Shown here piece after piece: positions 11,648-26,143 of a DNA stretch of 35,710 nt (position 1 is the first letter of the stretch; every line of letters begins with the position of its first letter). The notes under the pieces were generated by a model. The model saw nothing but the letters and a program-made list of their open reading frames with translations. It was not told where the DNA came from and made no database searches. The position numbers were made by a program, and so were the translations under genes. Origin of the DNA: Candidatus Staskawiczbacteria bacterium RIFCSPHIGHO2_01_FULL_39_25 (GTDB lineage Bacteria > Patescibacteriota > Minisyncoccia > Minisyncoccales > Staskawiczbacteraceae); assembly GCA_001820095.1 (NCBI GenBank), contig MHOO01000011.1, positions 65,958 through 101,667 on the forward strand, written 5' to 3'.

Positions 11648-14600
11648 TTAGGAGTTTTTATTCTCTAACTTTTGTATAAGATCTCGTAATTCGACAGCGC
11701 GTTCAAAATCAAGATTTTTTGCGGCTATTTTCATTTCTTTTTCCAGGAGTTTTTTGTCATGGACCAAAGCAAATTCTGATTCCACATCTTCCTTTTTTGA
11801 AAAGCCCCAGTCGCGAATGTCTTTGATAATTGCTTGCGGGGTTATGTTATGTTTTTTGTTGTAGGCTTGTTGGATTTTTCTTCTTCGGTTTATTTCATCT
11901 ATGGCTGACTTCATAGACATGGTGGTCTTGTCGGCATACAAAATAATTCTGCCATTGGGATGCCGTGCCGCCCGGCCCATGGTTTGAATCAACGTAGTCT
12001 TATTCCTTAAAAAACCTTCTTTGTCGGCGTCCAAAATGGCTACTAATGAAACCTCTGGCAAATCCAGTCCTTCCCGCAACAGATTGATTCCTACCAACAC
12101 ATCATACTTACCTCTCCTAAAATCATTTAAAATTTCGGGGCGCTGCATCGTTTTTACTTCAGAATGCAGGTACTGCGTTTTTATTTTATGGTCAACTAAA
12201 TAGTCTGAAATTTCTTCGGCTAGTCGTTTGGTTAACGTAATGACGAGCACCCTATGTTTTTTGGCAACCTCTTTTCCAATCTCGGCGATCAAATCTTTAA
12301 TTTGGTTTTCAGTTTTTTTAATTTCTATGGAAGGTTCCAGCAATCCGGTTGGCCTTACTAATTGCTCTATAATATGTTTCCCAGACTTTTCCTTTTCGTA
12401 ATCAGCGGGTGTTGCGGAAACATAAATAGTTTGCTCTTGGCGTTCCTGGAATTCTTTAAAGGTAAGCGGCCGGTTGTCTACCGCCGAAGGAAGCCTGAAT
12501 CCGTAGTTAATCAACGTTTCTTTCCGTATTCTGTCTTGTACGGACATGGCCCGTATCTGCGAGGTAGAAATATGAGATTCATCAATGAACATTAAAAAAC
12601 CGTTTTGATTGGCGTGCTTAAAATAATCAACCAAAGAAAATGGGGGCGACCCTGGTTTCCTAAACTCCAGCTGGCTTGAGTAATTTTCTATGCCATGGCA
12701 CCAGCCGGTTTCTTTAAGCATTTCCAAATCATAATTTGTTTTTTGTTCCAGCCGCTGGGCTTCTACCAATTTTTTTTGTTTTTGCAAAACCTTTAATCTT
12801 TCTTGAAGCTCCAGTTTTATATTTTCAATAGCAATGTTTATTTTATTTTGAGGCGCAACCCAGAAGGTGGCGGGAAAGAGTGTGAATTTTGAATTATGAA
12901 TTATGAATTTTGAATTTGGCCCAGAAGGCGATTCAAATATGTTATGTATTTTATCTCCGGAAAATTCTACCCTAACTATTTTTTCTCCCGTTACCAGGTA
13001 AATTTCAACCATTTCCCCCCGTACGCGGAAGGTCGCAGGCTTAAAATCAATGTCATTCCTTTTATACTGCATGGCAATAAGGTGTGAGATGAATTCCTTG
13101 CGGGTGATTTTCTGGTTTGCTTTAATTTCCAGGGAAACGCTTTGATAGTTTTCCGGCGAGCCGATGTTGTAAATGCAAGATACGGAAGCCACCACAATCG
13201 CATCTTTGCGCGAAAGCACATCTTGAGCGGCAGCGTGGCGAAGGCGGTCTATTTCCTCGTTTATCTTTGCATCTTTTTCTATGTAGGTGTCCGTTTGGGG
13301 AATATAGGCTTCTGGCTGGTAATAATCATAGTAAGAAACAAAATAGTGCACGCCGTTATTCGGGAAAAATTCCTTGAATTCCTGGTAAAGTTGGGCCGCG
13401 AGAGTTTTGTTACAAGCTACTATGAGCGTAGGTTTTTTCACTTCATTTATTACATTTGCCATAGTGAATGTATTATGCGCAAATAATCCTCCAAAACCAG
13501 CAAGAAAGGTTTCATTTCCCTTGACTGCAAAATCATAGACATAGGGACATTGTGAAGCTACTTCTTTAATTTCGGCAATTTTTAACCAGTGGCAGTTGAG
13601 AAGACTTTTTAGCTCATTAACCTCATTACTTTTTCCAGAAACTTTTACTAAACAGTTGATTATTTTTTCAAAAGTTTGTTTTCTAGGATTATTAATGCCA
13701 AGTTCAACGGAATTTAAAGTGCCCTGTACTACGCCCGCCATTTCTGAAAAAACTCTTTGAGAAATTTTTAAAGACGTCCTAAGTTTTTTTATTTGCGGAC
13801 CAACATCGGGAATAATATCAACGTTACTTCCTTTGGTGGTGTTATATAATGTTATTAAATTTTTTTGTTTTCTTGGCAGTGAAAATCCAATACATTTTTT
13901 AAATTTTTCTAAATTTTCTTTTCCTGAAATGGTAATATAATAATAGTAACTTCCTTTATGGTAAAGAGAGTTAGTGGCATGGCTCCATCTTTTGTTAATT
14001 CGAGCCCATATGCCAAACCGCAAAAGAGCATAACTAATATCAGAAGCAAGTTGCTTGCTTGCAGTTGGAGCTACCACCTCTCCACTTTTGGGAAAGGCGC
14101 CCCCATCACCATTAAAATAAGTTTGAAGCAAAACTGCAAGTTGTTTTTGCGAAAGATCTGGCCAGAAAGAAGGCAGTTTTTTAGAGCGGGAATTACTTCC
14201 CAAAAGAGAAACTAAAAATTCAGTATGAATTTTAGATGTAATGTTAAAATCGCATTTTCTGTATTTTCCTCGATGGTAGTTTAGCGAAAGTTTTTTAAGG
14301 GTATTCCTTAAGTCTTTTTGGATGTATTTTTCTGCTGCACTGATAGTGAAAAACCTTGATTTCGGTTCACCGTGTCCTTCTGCAATATAGTAACCCATTA
14401 ATTTTAGCCACTCCTCGGTTAGTGGGACTTTTCCCGGTAAACTGTAGTTATGGATTTGAGAGCCAACAACTATTTTATTAAAATCTTCTAAACAAGTATC
14501 AATTTTGAATTCTCGGCTTATTTGATCAATCGTTGAAATGGGCATTCCACAGTAAGCTCCATGCATAATCTGGTAAACCTTATGCCTGGGGAAAGCGTAA

Positions 14601-15268
14601 TATTTACCCATAGCTTGAATTACTTCAGAAAGTTTTCTTTGCATTAATACCCTTGATACAAATAAATTTGCATTAGCAAATAGCATGTTTTTATTTAGAA
14701 CTTCTAAGGTATCAATATGGGAAAGGTCTTTTTCAGACGTAGTTATATCGGTCGGCAAGGGGATAAAGTCAGTCTTTTCTACCTCTTTGGTTGGCATAAG
14801 CGTTAATTTGCCTTTTCTAAGTACCCAAAAATTATGGTCACCGGTAACTGTTATTTCCCGGCCACAGGTTGTTTTTACTTCGTAAAGATTCTTAGGAGAA
14901 GTATGACGGACTAATTGCGTAACAGCTTTCCACTCAGTCTGCTTATTTTTAGGATTAAGAGAAATTGTTTCTATATACTTTTCTTTTTTAATTGAGTCGG
15001 TAAAAATTATTTCACTATCTTCTATTACCCTAATTTTATCAGGGTATTTTTGGAATAATTCATCAACAAACCTACCAATGGGATTACATGTGGTTTTCCC
15101 ATTTAATTTCACTACTACTGGTGTCTCTGGTGTTATGCTTTTACCACTTCCCGTAACACCTAAAAGAACCTGGTCCCTGATGCCAGATGTAAGGTTTTTT
15201 ACGAGTTGCTTGATAGCGTGCGGTTGATCTCCGGTTGGCTTGAACTTGGTATTTAACTTAAATTCCAT
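11648..15268 (-). CDS. uvrB: UvrB excinuclease subunit, interrupted in frame by an intein
   Basis: The precursor is 1206 aa. Removing residues 44-599 leaves a 650-residue UvrB of normal length. The extein shows '[11 protein letters not shown]', Walker A 'GVTGSGK/TFTMANV' split by the intein, '[15 protein letters not shown]', the Tyr-rich beta-hairpin '[22 protein letters not shown]', 'DESHIS', 'RPTGLLEP', '[29 protein letters not shown]', '[10 protein letters not shown]' and the C-terminal UVR motif ('[16 protein letters not shown]'). UvrB loads at damage with UvrA and recruits UvrC. A short repeat-encoded insert ('[11 protein letters not shown]') lies in the middle. The ATG at 15268 is divergent from ruvA, 12 bases away, with TATCAT upstream on the minus strand. 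Splicing must occur for activity, because the intein breaks the ATP-binding loop. Confidence 0.95.
   Translation of the reverse strand: [1206 protein letters not shown]
12883..12917 (-). repeat. In-frame simple repeat inside uvrB
   Basis: Tandem GAATTNTGAATT units encode '[10 protein letters not shown]' in the UvrB extein, another member of the short AT-rich tracts found inside genes of this window. Confidence 0.8.
13472..15139 (-). mobile_element. Intein with LAGLIDADG homing endonuclease and an inserted HTH domain (in UvrB)
   Basis: The 556-residue element begins Ser1 ('[10 protein letters not shown]', block A) and ends '[12 protein letters not shown]' followed by Thr+1 of the extein, i.e. 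a Ser-type, class 1 intein with terminal His-Asn. Block B is 'VTGDHNFWV' (precursor residues 141-149, T..H present). Two LAGLIDADG motifs are visible: '[11 protein letters not shown]' (288-298) and '[11 protein letters not shown]' (379-389), with the acidic residues retained. Between the endonuclease and the C-terminal splicing block lies '[19 protein letters not shown]...' (489-535), an XRE/Cro-type helix-turn-helix pattern. Insertion is exactly between Lys and Thr of the UvrB P-loop. All visible catalytic residues look intact, so both splicing and homing are likely functional. Confidence 0.92.
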
Positions 15269-16461: not shown

Positions 16462-17694
16462 ATGGGAATCAAAAAAATAATTAAAAATTTACTACCCGGG
16501 TTTTTATTGGGTTTTTATTACTATACCATAGCGCTTCTTGGCGCAGTCATTTTTTTGTTTCCTTCGCGTAAATTAATCGTCATTGGAGTTACTGGCACCA
16601 GCGGAAAATCTACCACCGTGGATTTTACGGCTAGAATCTTAGAAGAGGCAGGCCGAAAAACTGCTTCAATGTCTTCGGTAAGGTTTAAAATTGCAGAGAA
16701 AGAATGGAAAAATGAATTAAAAATGACGATGCCCGGCCGTTTTACCATTCAGAAATTTTTACGGCAGGCGGCAAATCAAGGCTGCAAATACGCAGTTTTA
16801 GAAGTTACATCAGAAGGCATAAAACAATTCCGCCACAAGTTCATCAATTTTGATGTCGCAGTTTTTACTAATTTAAGCCCCGAACATATTGAATCGCATG
16901 GAGGTTTCGAAAATTACCGGAGTGAAAAATTAAAATTATTTCAGGCAGCAAAAAATATCCATGTTATAAATATTGACGATGAAAACGCGAGATACTTTTT
17001 AGATATTCCCGCAAAAAAAGTAATTACATTTGGGATAGAAAAAGGAGATTTTAATTTGAAGAATACAAATTTTCATTTGAATTTATTGGGAGATTTTAAT
17101 AATTATAATGCGTTGGCGGCGATTGCCGTGGCAGATGCTTATGGTATTTCTCTGGATACATGCAAAAAAGCTTTAGAAAAAGTGGAAGGAATCCCCGGTA
17201 GAATGGAAATTGTTGCAAAAAATCCCTTGGTGGTGGTTGACTACGCACATACACCCGTCCAGCTTGAAGGCGTTTATAAAACGCTTTCAAGCTGGACGGG
17301 AAATTCGAAATCCAAAGCACGAAATCCGAAATTAATTTGTGTATTGGGCTCTTGCGGAGGGGGGAGAGACAAGTGGAAACGGCCGGTATTGGGAAAAATT
17401 GCCGAACAATATTGCAACCAAATAATTATTACCAATGAAGACCCGTATGACGAAGACCCTCTGGAAATTATGGAGCAAGTGGCAAGCGGCGTTACAAATC
17501 ATGAGCATCATATTGTTATAGATAGAAAAGAAGCCATAAAAAAAGCCTTAGAGCTTGCAAAACCCGAGGATACCGTGATTATTACCGGCAAGGGATCTGA
17601 ACCTTTAATGTGCCTTGAAAATGGCAAAAAGATTCCCTGGAGTGATAAAAAGACAGTAGGAGAATTAATAGGATCTCAAAAAGTTGATTTTTAA
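16462..17694 (+). CDS. Membrane-anchored Mur ligase (MurE-like)
   Basis: ATP-dependent amide ligase of the Mur family, 410 aa. A hydrophobic helix (about residues 12-35) replaces the UDP-sugar-binding N-terminal domain of normal MurE. The ATPase core follows: P-loop 'GVTGTSGKST', 'VLEVTSEGI', 'FTNLSPEHIESH', 'LLGDFNNYNALAA', then the C-terminal domain 'VVVDYAHTPVQLE', 'LGSCGGGRDKWKRP', 'TNEDPYDEDP' and 'GKGSE'. The position of the MurE DNPR meso-DAP-recognition motif reads EDPYDEDP, so a different amino acid or acceptor is likely. A simple-repeat insert ('GNSKSKARNPKL') expands the loop before 'ICVLGSCGGG'. The promoter looks like an extended -10 TGCTAGATT ending 8 bases before the ATG. Lipid-linked or capsule-like substrates are possible; this is inference. 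Confidence 0.8.
   Translation: MGIKKIIKNLLPGFLLGFYYYTIALLGAVIFLFPSRKLIVIGVTGTSGKSTTVDFTARILEEAGRKTASMSSVRFKIAEKEWKNELKMTMPGRFTIQKFLRQAANQGCKYAVLEVTSEGIKQFRHKFINFDVAVFTNLSPEHIESHGGFENYRSEKLKLFQAAKNIHVINIDDENARYFLDIPAKKVITFGIEKGDFNLKNTNFHLNLLGDFNNYNALAAIAVADAYGISLDTCKKALEKVEGIPGRMEIVAKNPLVVVDYAHTPVQLEGVYKTLSSWTGNSKSKARNPKLICVLGSCGGGRDKWKRPVLGKIAEQYCNQIIITNEDPYDEDPLEIMEQVASGVTNHEHHIVIDRKEAIKKALELAKPEDTVIITGKGSEPLMCLENGKKIPWSDKKTVGELIGSQKVDF
17300..17337 (+). repeat. In-frame simple repeat inside the Mur ligase
   Basis: GAAATTCGAAATCC...GAAATCCGAAATT units encode a Ser/Lys/Arg/Asn loop between the C-terminal domain strands. Confidence 0.75.
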
Positions 17695-17734
17695 GAGGTT
17701 TTAGGTTAAAGTGTAAGAAGCATAGAAATGCCTG

Positions 17735-17790
17735 CCCGGTTAAATAGCGCCTCTGGCGCTAATTTTGCTGGGCAAAATTATTTAACTGGG
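17735..17790 (+). promoter_or_regulatory. Three-way-junction RNA element upstream of small basic ORFs
   Basis: A closing stem CCCGGTTAAAT / ATTTAACTGGG (one G-T pair) encloses two perfect hairpins, AGCGCC-TCT-GGCGCT and ATTTTGC-TGG-GCAAAAT. The 56-base element ends 21 bases before the ATG of the 17812 ORF. It has no T-run directly after it, so it is less like a terminator and more like a 5'-UTR structure, for instance a protein-autoregulation site. The function is inferred from position only. Confidence 0.5.
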
Positions 17791-17811
17791 TGAACTTTTT
17801 GTGTTGAAGAA

Positions 17812-18066
17812 ATGTCTAAAAACAATCAAATAAGAAAATCTGATAAGAAGTTTATAAGACTTGAAAAAGCCCGCATCCGCAGGCAGATTTTAGATAGTAA
17901 AAAACAGCAAGAATTAATCACGAATCTTTATAAAAGATTTTTAGTTCAACCAGAAATAGCCGCCATTGAAACGGCGGTACAAAAAATTTCAGAGCCAAAG
18001 GTTTTATCTGCAAAAGTAAAAACCACAAAATCAAAAGTAAAAAAATCTGCAGTAAAAGTAAAATAA
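17812..18066 (+). CDS. Small basic protein, unknown
   Basis: 84 residues, very rich in Lys, with no hydrophobic core segment. 'RIRRQILDSKKQQELITNLYKRFL' is helical; a middle 'QPEIAAIETAVQKI' follows, then a Lys/Val/Ser-repeat tail ('KTTKSKVKKSAVKVK') like nucleic-acid-binding tails. It could bind rRNA or DNA. It is preceded by the three-way-junction RNA and followed after one base by another tiny basic ORF, suggesting a co-translated pair. I recognise no family. Confidence 0.65.
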   Translation: MSKNNQIRKSDKKFIRLEKARIRRQILDSKKQQELITNLYKRFLVQPEIAAIETAVQKISEPKVLSAKVKTTKSKVKKSAVKVK

Positions 18067-18067
18067 T

Positions 18068-18157
18068 ATGAAACGCAATAGCACAAGGCATAACGCCAGG
18101 ATAAATAAACGCTGGAGGAAAAGCAGGAGTAAAAAATACAACACTATCAAAGCATGA
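18068..18157 (+). CDS. 29-residue extremely basic micro-protein
   Basis: Not in the ORF track because it is too short. The ATG lies one base after the preceding stop. The reading frame MKRNSTRHNARINKRWRKSR... ends at a TGA that overlaps the next ATG (ATGA), a classic translational-coupling arrangement. More than a third of its residues are Lys or Arg, comparable with the tiny ribosomal proteins (bTHX, bS22, bL36 size class), but I see no diagnostic motif of any of them. It lies between the 84-aa basic ORF and the NIF3-like gene. That it is translated is inferred from the tight spacing and composition. Confidence 0.5.
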   Translation: MKRNSTRHNARINKRWRKSRSKKYNTIKA

Positions 18158-19098
18158 GGGTAATAGATATCCAAAATTTATCCATTAAAATGGGGATGGA
18201 ATCGGATTTCCGCGGAAGAGAAGGAGTCCAAAAGCTTTTAGATAGTAAAAAATCAAAATTCCAAAAACTTTCATTAAAAGAACAAGAGGAATTTGATAAA
18301 GAGGCCTTAGAAAACCCCTATTTAGATTCGGGAGTGTATAATGTTTCTGACGACAAAGAAATAAAAAAAGTGTTAGTGGGAATTGATATCGGCCCGGAGG
18401 AAATTTTATTGGCTAAGCAATTAGGCAATATAGATTTAGTTATTGGCCACCATCCGATAGGTAAAGGGTTGGCGCAATTGGCCGATGTCATGGACTTGCA
18501 GTGCGATGTGTTGCACCAATATGGCGTGCCCATTAATATTGCAGAAGGGTTAATGCGAATACGCATTTCTGAAGTTGCCAGGGGTGTAAATGCCATTAAT
18601 CATCAGCGTACCGTAGATACGGCGCGGATTCTCGGAGTCAACCTAATGAATTCGCATACGCCGACTGACAATCTAGCTGCCAGATTTTTAAAAAACCATA
18701 TTGAGCAAAAAAAGCCCGAAAGAGTGGGAGAAATTATAGACGCCTTAAAAGAGCTTCCGGAATATAAAGAAGCGATGAAAATAGGAGTCGGCCCTAAAAT
18801 TTTTGTTGGTTCACCAGAAAATAGAACCGGCAAGATTGCCGTTTCTGAAATTACCGGCGGTACGGAAGGCTCTCCAAAACTGTATGAAAAAATGGCGCAA
18901 GCGGGCATTGGAACCGTTATCGCCATGCACACGTCAGAAGAGCACCGGAAAGAAGCCGAAGCGGCCCACATTAATATTGTAATTGCGGGACACATGTCTT
19001 CTGATTCTTTGGGGGTTAATTTGTTTATTGATGAACTTCAAAAGCAGGGAATTGAAATTATGCCTTGCTCGGGATTTACCAGGGTTTCAAGGGCATAG
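18154..19098 (+). CDS. NIF3-like metal-binding protein
   Basis: A 314-residue protein with NIF3/YbgI family features: 'VLVGIDIGPEEILLAKQLGNIDLVIGHHPIGKG' (the metal-binding HH after the first beta-alpha unit), 'MNSHTPTDNLAARFL' (second metal site, T/SxxDxa) and near the C terminus 'VIAMHTSEEHRKEA' with 'IVIAGHMSSDSLGVNL' (GH..SD..G metal ligands). NIF3 proteins form toroidal hexamers with a dinuclear metal centre; their biochemical role is disputed (GTP cyclohydrolase-like fold, often noted as GTP cyclohydrolase 1 type 2). The N-terminal ~75 residues are longer than in YbgI. It is translationally coupled to the micro-ORF (ATGA overlap) and followed by a strong terminator. Confidence 0.8.
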   Translation: MRVIDIQNLSIKMGMESDFRGREGVQKLLDSKKSKFQKLSLKEQEEFDKEALENPYLDSGVYNVSDDKEIKKVLVGIDIGPEEILLAKQLGNIDLVIGHHPIGKGLAQLADVMDLQCDVLHQYGVPINIAEGLMRIRISEVARGVNAINHQRTVDTARILGVNLMNSHTPTDNLAARFLKNHIEQKKPERVGEIIDALKELPEYKEAMKIGVGPKIFVGSPENRTGKIAVSEITGGTEGSPKLYEKMAQAGIGTVIAMHTSEEHRKEAEAAHINIVIAGHMSSDSLGVNLFIDELQKQGIEIMPCSGFTRVSRA

Positions 19099-25773: not shown

Positions 25774-25790
25774 ATTATAACTTTAATTAG

Positions 25791-26143
25791 TGGAGATGGA
25801 GGAGTTGAATCCTCGTCTGAAAAGCTATTAAAAACAATTCTACAAGCGTAGCTCATCTTTAATTTAAGATATGAAATAAAAGATAAGCGAAATTTTCATA
25901 TCCTAGCTTTATTGGGTTTTGGTAATTACTTTAAAGCTAAAATAATTACCTATCCCGATTATATAACACCTTTATCTACCTACCGGGAATCAATAGTAAA
26001 GATGTAGCACTAAGCGTATGCTAATGCTGGTTGCCTCTTATTAAATAAGTTAGCAATTATTGTTTTCTCAAAGTTTTATGAGGTTTGAGAATACTCAGCT
26101 TGCCTTGTTTTTAAAGGACAAATCATCGAAAGCTTTCATCCCC
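25791..26143 (-). ncRNA. ssrA: Transfer-messenger RNA (tmRNA)
   Basis: On the minus strand the 5' end GGGGATG pairs with the 3' CATCTCC (one G-T) to form the tRNA-like acceptor. The 3' part has the T arm GAGG-ATTCAACT-CCTC, and the 5' part has the 'CTTTCGATGA' segment typical of tmRNA D-region starts. The tag reading frame (26010-26054) reads ANLFNKRQPALAYA then TAG; the C-terminal ALAYA resembles the ALAA degradation signal. Hairpins compatible with the pseudoknot region follow, for example GGTAATTA/TAATTACC. The CCA is not encoded: the discriminator A is followed by CTA, so it must be added. The length is about 353 bases. The gene lies 5 bases after the smpB stop and 17 bases before infC. 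Confidence 0.93.
26010..26054 (-). other. tmRNA proteolysis-tag reading frame
   Basis: Resume codon GCT, then codes for ANLFNKRQPALAYA and stop TAG. It marks stalled proteins for ClpXP-type degradation. The penultimate Tyr in ALAYA differs from the common ALAA. Confidence 0.85.

Follow-up and report, generated by a model that had tools for sequence, protein, structure and literature searches.

The window analysed here, a stretch of 35,710 nucleotides from a 743-kb draft genome whose relatives in the same genus mostly carry the name Candidatus Staskawiczbacteria, contains a compact fold upstream of two tiny basic genes and a NIF3 gene. This fold very probably belongs to a small mobile palindrome, copies of which are dispersed over many Patescibacteria genomes, and is not a switch for its neighbours; that assessment covers jointly a mobile element and genuine small genes beside it. 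Of the two findings, that on the fold holds more interest, since it points to a three-armed insertion element that invades proteins in Patescibacteria.

A three-armed fold and its dispersed copies

Direct reading of the forward strand gives the anatomy described in an earlier note on this DNA: a three-way junction of 56 nt at 17735–17790. The 5′ half of the closing stem, CCCGGTTAAAT (17735–17745), pairs with the 3′ half, ATTTAACTGGG (17780–17790), over 11 bp, one of them G-U; between them lie two abutting perfect hairpins, arm A (AGCGCC-TCT-GGCGCT, 17746–17760) and arm B (AATTTTGC-TGG-GCAAAATT, 17761–17779). The region folded alone is stabler than shuffled sequences (z −2.74), and the centroid structure of the window region is the three-way junction, with a different minimum free energy structure. 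The surrounding gene layout, also on the forward strand, is likewise that of the earlier note. A MurE-like Mur ligase (16462–17694; Pfam, NCBIfam) lies upstream; the start codon of an 84-aa ORF (17812–18066) follows the element after 21 nt; then come a 29-aa ORF (18068–18157) and, joined to it by an ATGA overlap, a NIF3/DUF34 gene (18154–19098). Two further features of the window, both on the reverse strand, are a UvrB gene (11648–15268) containing an intein (Pfam Intein_splicing, 1e-15) whose domains include LAGLIDADG and HTH, and a tmRNA (25788–26143) that scores 122.7 bits in Rfam and is absent from the ARAGORN output.

In the window's own genome, a DNA search returned a single similar copy (85%) along with several fragments. 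Counts for whole genomes were obtained by searches with the covariance model R2, to which the window copy scores 75.5 bits; many sites were matched on both strands, so sites are fewer than hits. By this model the own genome has six element sites. Within the order, 20 of 39 genomes, counting the own, have the element, and the highest number of hits in a single genome is 52. Of 240 genomes sampled across the whole phylum 13 have it, and twelve of these lie outside the class of the window. One strict pattern, run against viral contigs with phage carriage in mind, gave no match to the element.

Comparison of 66 copies places the core at 52–69 nt. There are 61 distinct first arms and 61 distinct second arms, and both arms reach at least 5 bp in 52 copies. 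In the model alignment, which leans towards the structure because it was fitted to it and includes many copies on both strands, 97.5% of cells are paired and 17 of 21 pairs are changed on both sides; when the structure is slid by 1–3 columns as a control, pairing drops to 32–56%. Raw counts agree with the covariation: stem position 7, for example, is T-A in 48 copies and C-G in 16. The junction is far beyond chance, for in other copies the bases differ while the pairing is preserved. The earlier note had proposed covariation as a test of the junction; covariation is indeed present in the pairing, but as a property of the mobile element and not of the operon. Arms are more similar within genomes (0.673) than between them (0.625), a difference reached by 1 in 2000 shuffles. 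In two instances (L114/L160 and L137/L167) matching flanks indicate what is apparently the same site in different genomes, and there the arms are quite different.

Copies inside genes and the ends of the inserted unit

Most copies are intergenic. Six of the 66 are within ORFs, preceded by 15 or more residues and followed by 60 or more. In the rpoC of one genome exactly 20 residues are added between GSEKE and KLF, inside the Pfam domain RNA_pol_Rpb1_3, and this addition is absent in 23 other genera. A further 20 residues are added inside PPDK_N in the PEP synthase of another genome and are missing from the orthologues compared, while a PAP2 phosphatase of the own genome has 22 added residues that are missing in two congeners and in one more distant genome. 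Copies in FtsZ-like and PrmC-like genes stand near the N termini, where a misplaced start codon is also possible. The inserts use at least two reading frames (HPVKSREAGIPSSAGLFNRV is one example of a peptide encoded by the element), and their open frames suggest that they are translated. On the sequences compared, the element inserts in frame into essential genes, RNA polymerase among them, and illustrates one route by which such bacteria acquire lineage-specific insertions in core proteins.

Two other observations concern coding sequence. In the type IV pilin-like genes of L221 (genome G081) and L127 (G012) a copy stands directly before the cleavage motif (..LTG|FTLIELL and ..STG|FTIIELI) and makes up most of the leader peptide. 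The PAP2 gene of L175 (G010) has a different, 10-residue insert, LPQEQSRPAG, near the position of the element in the own genome, and its DNA is partly palindromic.

The three clean cases (rpoC, PEP synthase and PAP2) define the inserted unit: the insert consists of the core and 4 further nt, and the flanks are not repeats, that is, there is no target duplication. The ends are sharp, with TTTA abutting a unit that runs from CCC to GGGTGAA. For 49 copies an orientation could be assigned from the mismatched base pair beside the ends. Among these, each position of the left flank agrees with TTTA in 44–47 of 49 copies, and further out the sequence is close to random. TGAA forms the right end, with T-rich DNA after it; its T and G largely follow from the orientation rule, but its AA does not. 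We take TTTA to be part of the target and CCC...GGGTGAA to be the inserted unit because PEP synthase orthologues that lack the insert already have TATATTTA. In the window the corresponding TGAA is found at 17791–17794 (forward strand), a candidate right cleavage site by virtue of the flank profile and the empty sites. One end deviates from TTTA/TGAA in both the PAP2 insert and the window copy. The left flank of the latter (17731–17734, forward strand) is CCTG in place of TTTA, which counts against the above reading of the ends; CCTG is a minority variant that occurs also in L110 and L164, on one side or the other.

The order of the arms relative to the TTTA/TGAA polarity is random, 19 against 18 (L104–L173, 66 copies), as if the core flips between the ends. 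Inversion between the stem halves and hairpin copying are possibilities. The randomness counts against simple cut-and-paste, which does not explain it.

From the comparison of genomes we envisage a small non-autonomous insertion element, consisting of an 11-bp closing stem and two abutting hairpins whose sequences would be free so long as they pair. It would spread within genomes, landing mostly between genes and sometimes in frame, where it would add about 20 residues. The IS608-like layout of the ends suggests, tentatively and at somewhat less than even probability, that the moving form is folded single-stranded DNA, which an HUH-type transposase supplied in trans would cut 3′ of TTTA and after TGAA. 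A Y1 transposase is encoded in 22 of the 39 genomes of the order. Its presence does not track that of the element: at an E value of 1e-5 no Y1 transposase was found in several copy-bearing genomes, the own genome among them. Neither were element ends found around the four strongest Y1 loci, and both observations speak against a Y1 transposase as the partner. A weaker Y1 gene of G012 does have an ordinary copy 0.8 kb away (L282).

The leader of the 84-aa gene and the small basic proteins

The earlier note had likened the junction to a ribosomal-protein autoregulation site, and position lends this some appeal: if the 84-aa/29-aa/NIF3 operon had the junction as its cis-regulatory leader, for example one mimicking rRNA, a place 21 nt before the start codon would suit it, as would the position of most copies elsewhere, which is upstream of genes (co-oriented genes enclose 50 of them, divergent ones 12 and convergent ones 3). 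The relatives that were read, however, have no junction before the 84-aa gene; copies are dispersed at unrelated loci in the own and other genomes, some of them within protein-coding genes; and Rfam gives no family at gathering level, the best sub-threshold match over the element (19.3 bits against a cut-off of 58) being read, like the others, as chance. Regulation of the operon by the junction is thus very improbable, and the distribution of copies led us to reject it. The same bias to positions upstream of genes, together with the strong covariation and the retention of orthologous sites in two genomes despite different arms (L114/L160, L137/L167), could instead mark a structured RNA with a conserved function in trans (a regulatory RNA, mRNA stabiliser or processing site) that has been amplified in 5′ untranslated regions without being selfish. 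Against such an RNA stand the arm order, which favours neither direction with respect to the ends, the copies that lie in frame in rpoC and PEP synthase, and a presence that is patchy even inside one genus; we regard it as unlikely. Slimmest of all is the chance that the element is an intrinsic or bidirectional transcription terminator. Arm A was flagged by a terminator scan and T-rich DNA lies past the right end, but copies occur inside ORFs and merely 3 of 66 lie between convergent genes, against 12 between divergent ones; the orientation of the genes around the copies was our reason for rejecting termination.

In the leader of the 84-aa gene many relatives have, before the ATG, a promoter-like sequence and then a small hairpin with a T tract. 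Hairpin plus T tract occur in 21 of 30 leaders as against 11.3 in shuffles, a modest excess that includes some upstream terminators. In the window, the corresponding hairpin, GCATAGAAATGC (17720–17731, recognised by comparison with leaders in relatives), and the T tract (17796–17800), both on the forward strand, are split by the element. The element is not the ancestral regulator of the 84-aa gene, and it entered the leader apparently between the small hairpin and the T tract; we infer this from the pattern, no relative being close enough to provide an empty site at the nucleotide level. Inserts of this kind can pass for leader RNAs, and the present case serves as a warning.

As to the two ORFs, homologue counts and pN/pS bear out the suggestion that both are real genes under purifying selection. 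Of 58 genomes in the order, 49 have the 84-aa gene, with a single match in each except one, and the family is patchier beyond the order (11 of 240 genomes sampled across the phylum). Conservation is concentrated in some 35 residues, KSxRKFIRxEKARIRRQFLDxKKQEELIxELY, after which comes a variable Lys-rich tail; AlphaFold2 predicts a confident helical hairpin (residues 9–44) and a low-confidence tail. The 29-aa gene was found in 13 of 13 genomes of the genus, with no convincing match elsewhere, and its frame, whose loss in relatives would have spoken against it, is kept. Twelve of the 29 residues are Lys or Arg, and the core, TRHNxRINKRWRKSR, with its one Trp, is nearly invariant. Within the genus, the 29-aa core has a pN/pS of 0.12 and the 84-aa core one of 0.21. 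At the loci read, the 29-aa gene comes after the 84-aa gene, often 1–5 nt past its stop codon, otherwise overlapping it or further away.

Across the order, the 84-aa gene usually has NIF3 as its neighbour. The NIF3 ORF matches Pfam PF01784 above the cut-off (4.5e-10), yet with 31.4 bits it falls well below the equivalog cut-off of TIGR00486 (130.55). By sequence comparison, the 84-aa and 29-aa genes are genuine and form a cluster with NIF3. Distant members of the 84-aa family from outside the class (L244–L249) showed no NIF3 motif within 1.5 kb downstream in a simple pattern test.

Tiny ribosomal proteins, such as bTHX, bS22 and bL37, exist in other bacteria, and the two proteins could be lineage-specific counterparts. 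They are tiny and strongly basic; an invariant core with one Trp, a single copy per genome and strong purifying selection would all be in keeping with such a role, as would the predicted helical hairpin with a disordered Lys-rich tail in the 84-aa protein. Set against this, the neighbours are murE and NIF3 and not ribosomal genes, the 29-aa gene is confined to one genus, and a basic composition in itself suits any nucleic-acid binder. Nor did any known ribosomal protein match either ORF, in agreement with the earlier note: Pfam and NCBIfam gave no match for the 84-aa or the 29-aa ORF at E values up to 1, sequence and fold searches of the PDB gave no match to a solved chain for the small proteins (a query of 29 residues has little power), and a fold search with the 84-aa model returned nothing significant. 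A ribosomal identity is possible, but less likely than not. Their composition hints in the same guarded way that the proteins bind RNA, possibly the ribosome. As two conserved families of tiny basic proteins they are candidates for proteomics.

Relation to known palindromic elements

The ends of the element resemble those of the IS200/IS605 family, including IS608, and of its non-autonomous derivatives (PATEs): insertion takes place 3′ of a fixed tetranucleotide, which remains as the left flank, another tetranucleotide closes the right side, the hairpins lie between these ends, and the target is not duplicated. IS608 inserts 3′ of TTAC, which is kept in the left flank, and TCAA is its right cleavage site (PMC5934647). 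The present element differs in that no transposase gene is associated with it, in its two abutting hairpins under one closing stem, and in an arm order that is not fixed to the ends.

REP sequences and REPINs, with TnpA-REP, are likewise short dispersed palindromes, mostly intergenic, which a Y1 enzyme may move in trans (PMC8266576). REP elements are palindromes of 20–50 nt preceded by GTAG, whereas the element has three arms, TTTA/TGAA ends and copies inside genes. In the flank and core sequences of the 66 copies no GTAG was found before a hairpin of 20–50 nt, and membership among REP sequences was rejected on this basis. A search of the open-licence literature found no description of palindromic elements in CPR/Patescibacteria, which is weak evidence of absence.

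In behaviour the element is closest to the Rickettsia palindromic elements (RPEs), small dispersed palindromic repeats that lie in frame in unrelated, essential genes and add a peptide of similar sequence (PMC10969869, PMC6649704). Both are hairpin-forming palindromic repeats, both are dispersed, and both enter unrelated or essential genes in frame. The element is nonetheless not filed as an RPE, being set apart by the descriptions of RPEs: the RPE unit is about 150 bp (PMC10969869) as against about 60–70 bp here (core 52–69 nt), and the element is three-armed with covarying arms, has TTTA/TGAA ends, resides in Patescibacteria and uses at least two reading frames. It is conceivable, though we hold it as a conjecture more likely wrong than right, that the element represents a class of its own in Patescibacteria: three-armed protein-invading palindromes, moved as single strands by an HUH-type enzyme, that enter 3′ of TTTA and place peptides of about 20 residues in essential proteins including RNA polymerase, with arms that are replaced and a core that flips relative to the ends, which would suggest that a hairpin is copied much as in certain terminal repeats of viruses. 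With the RPEs as the first, the element would provide a second family of protein-invading palindromes, in a distant phylum of reduced genomes, and its readable ends and many empty sites make the mechanism testable.
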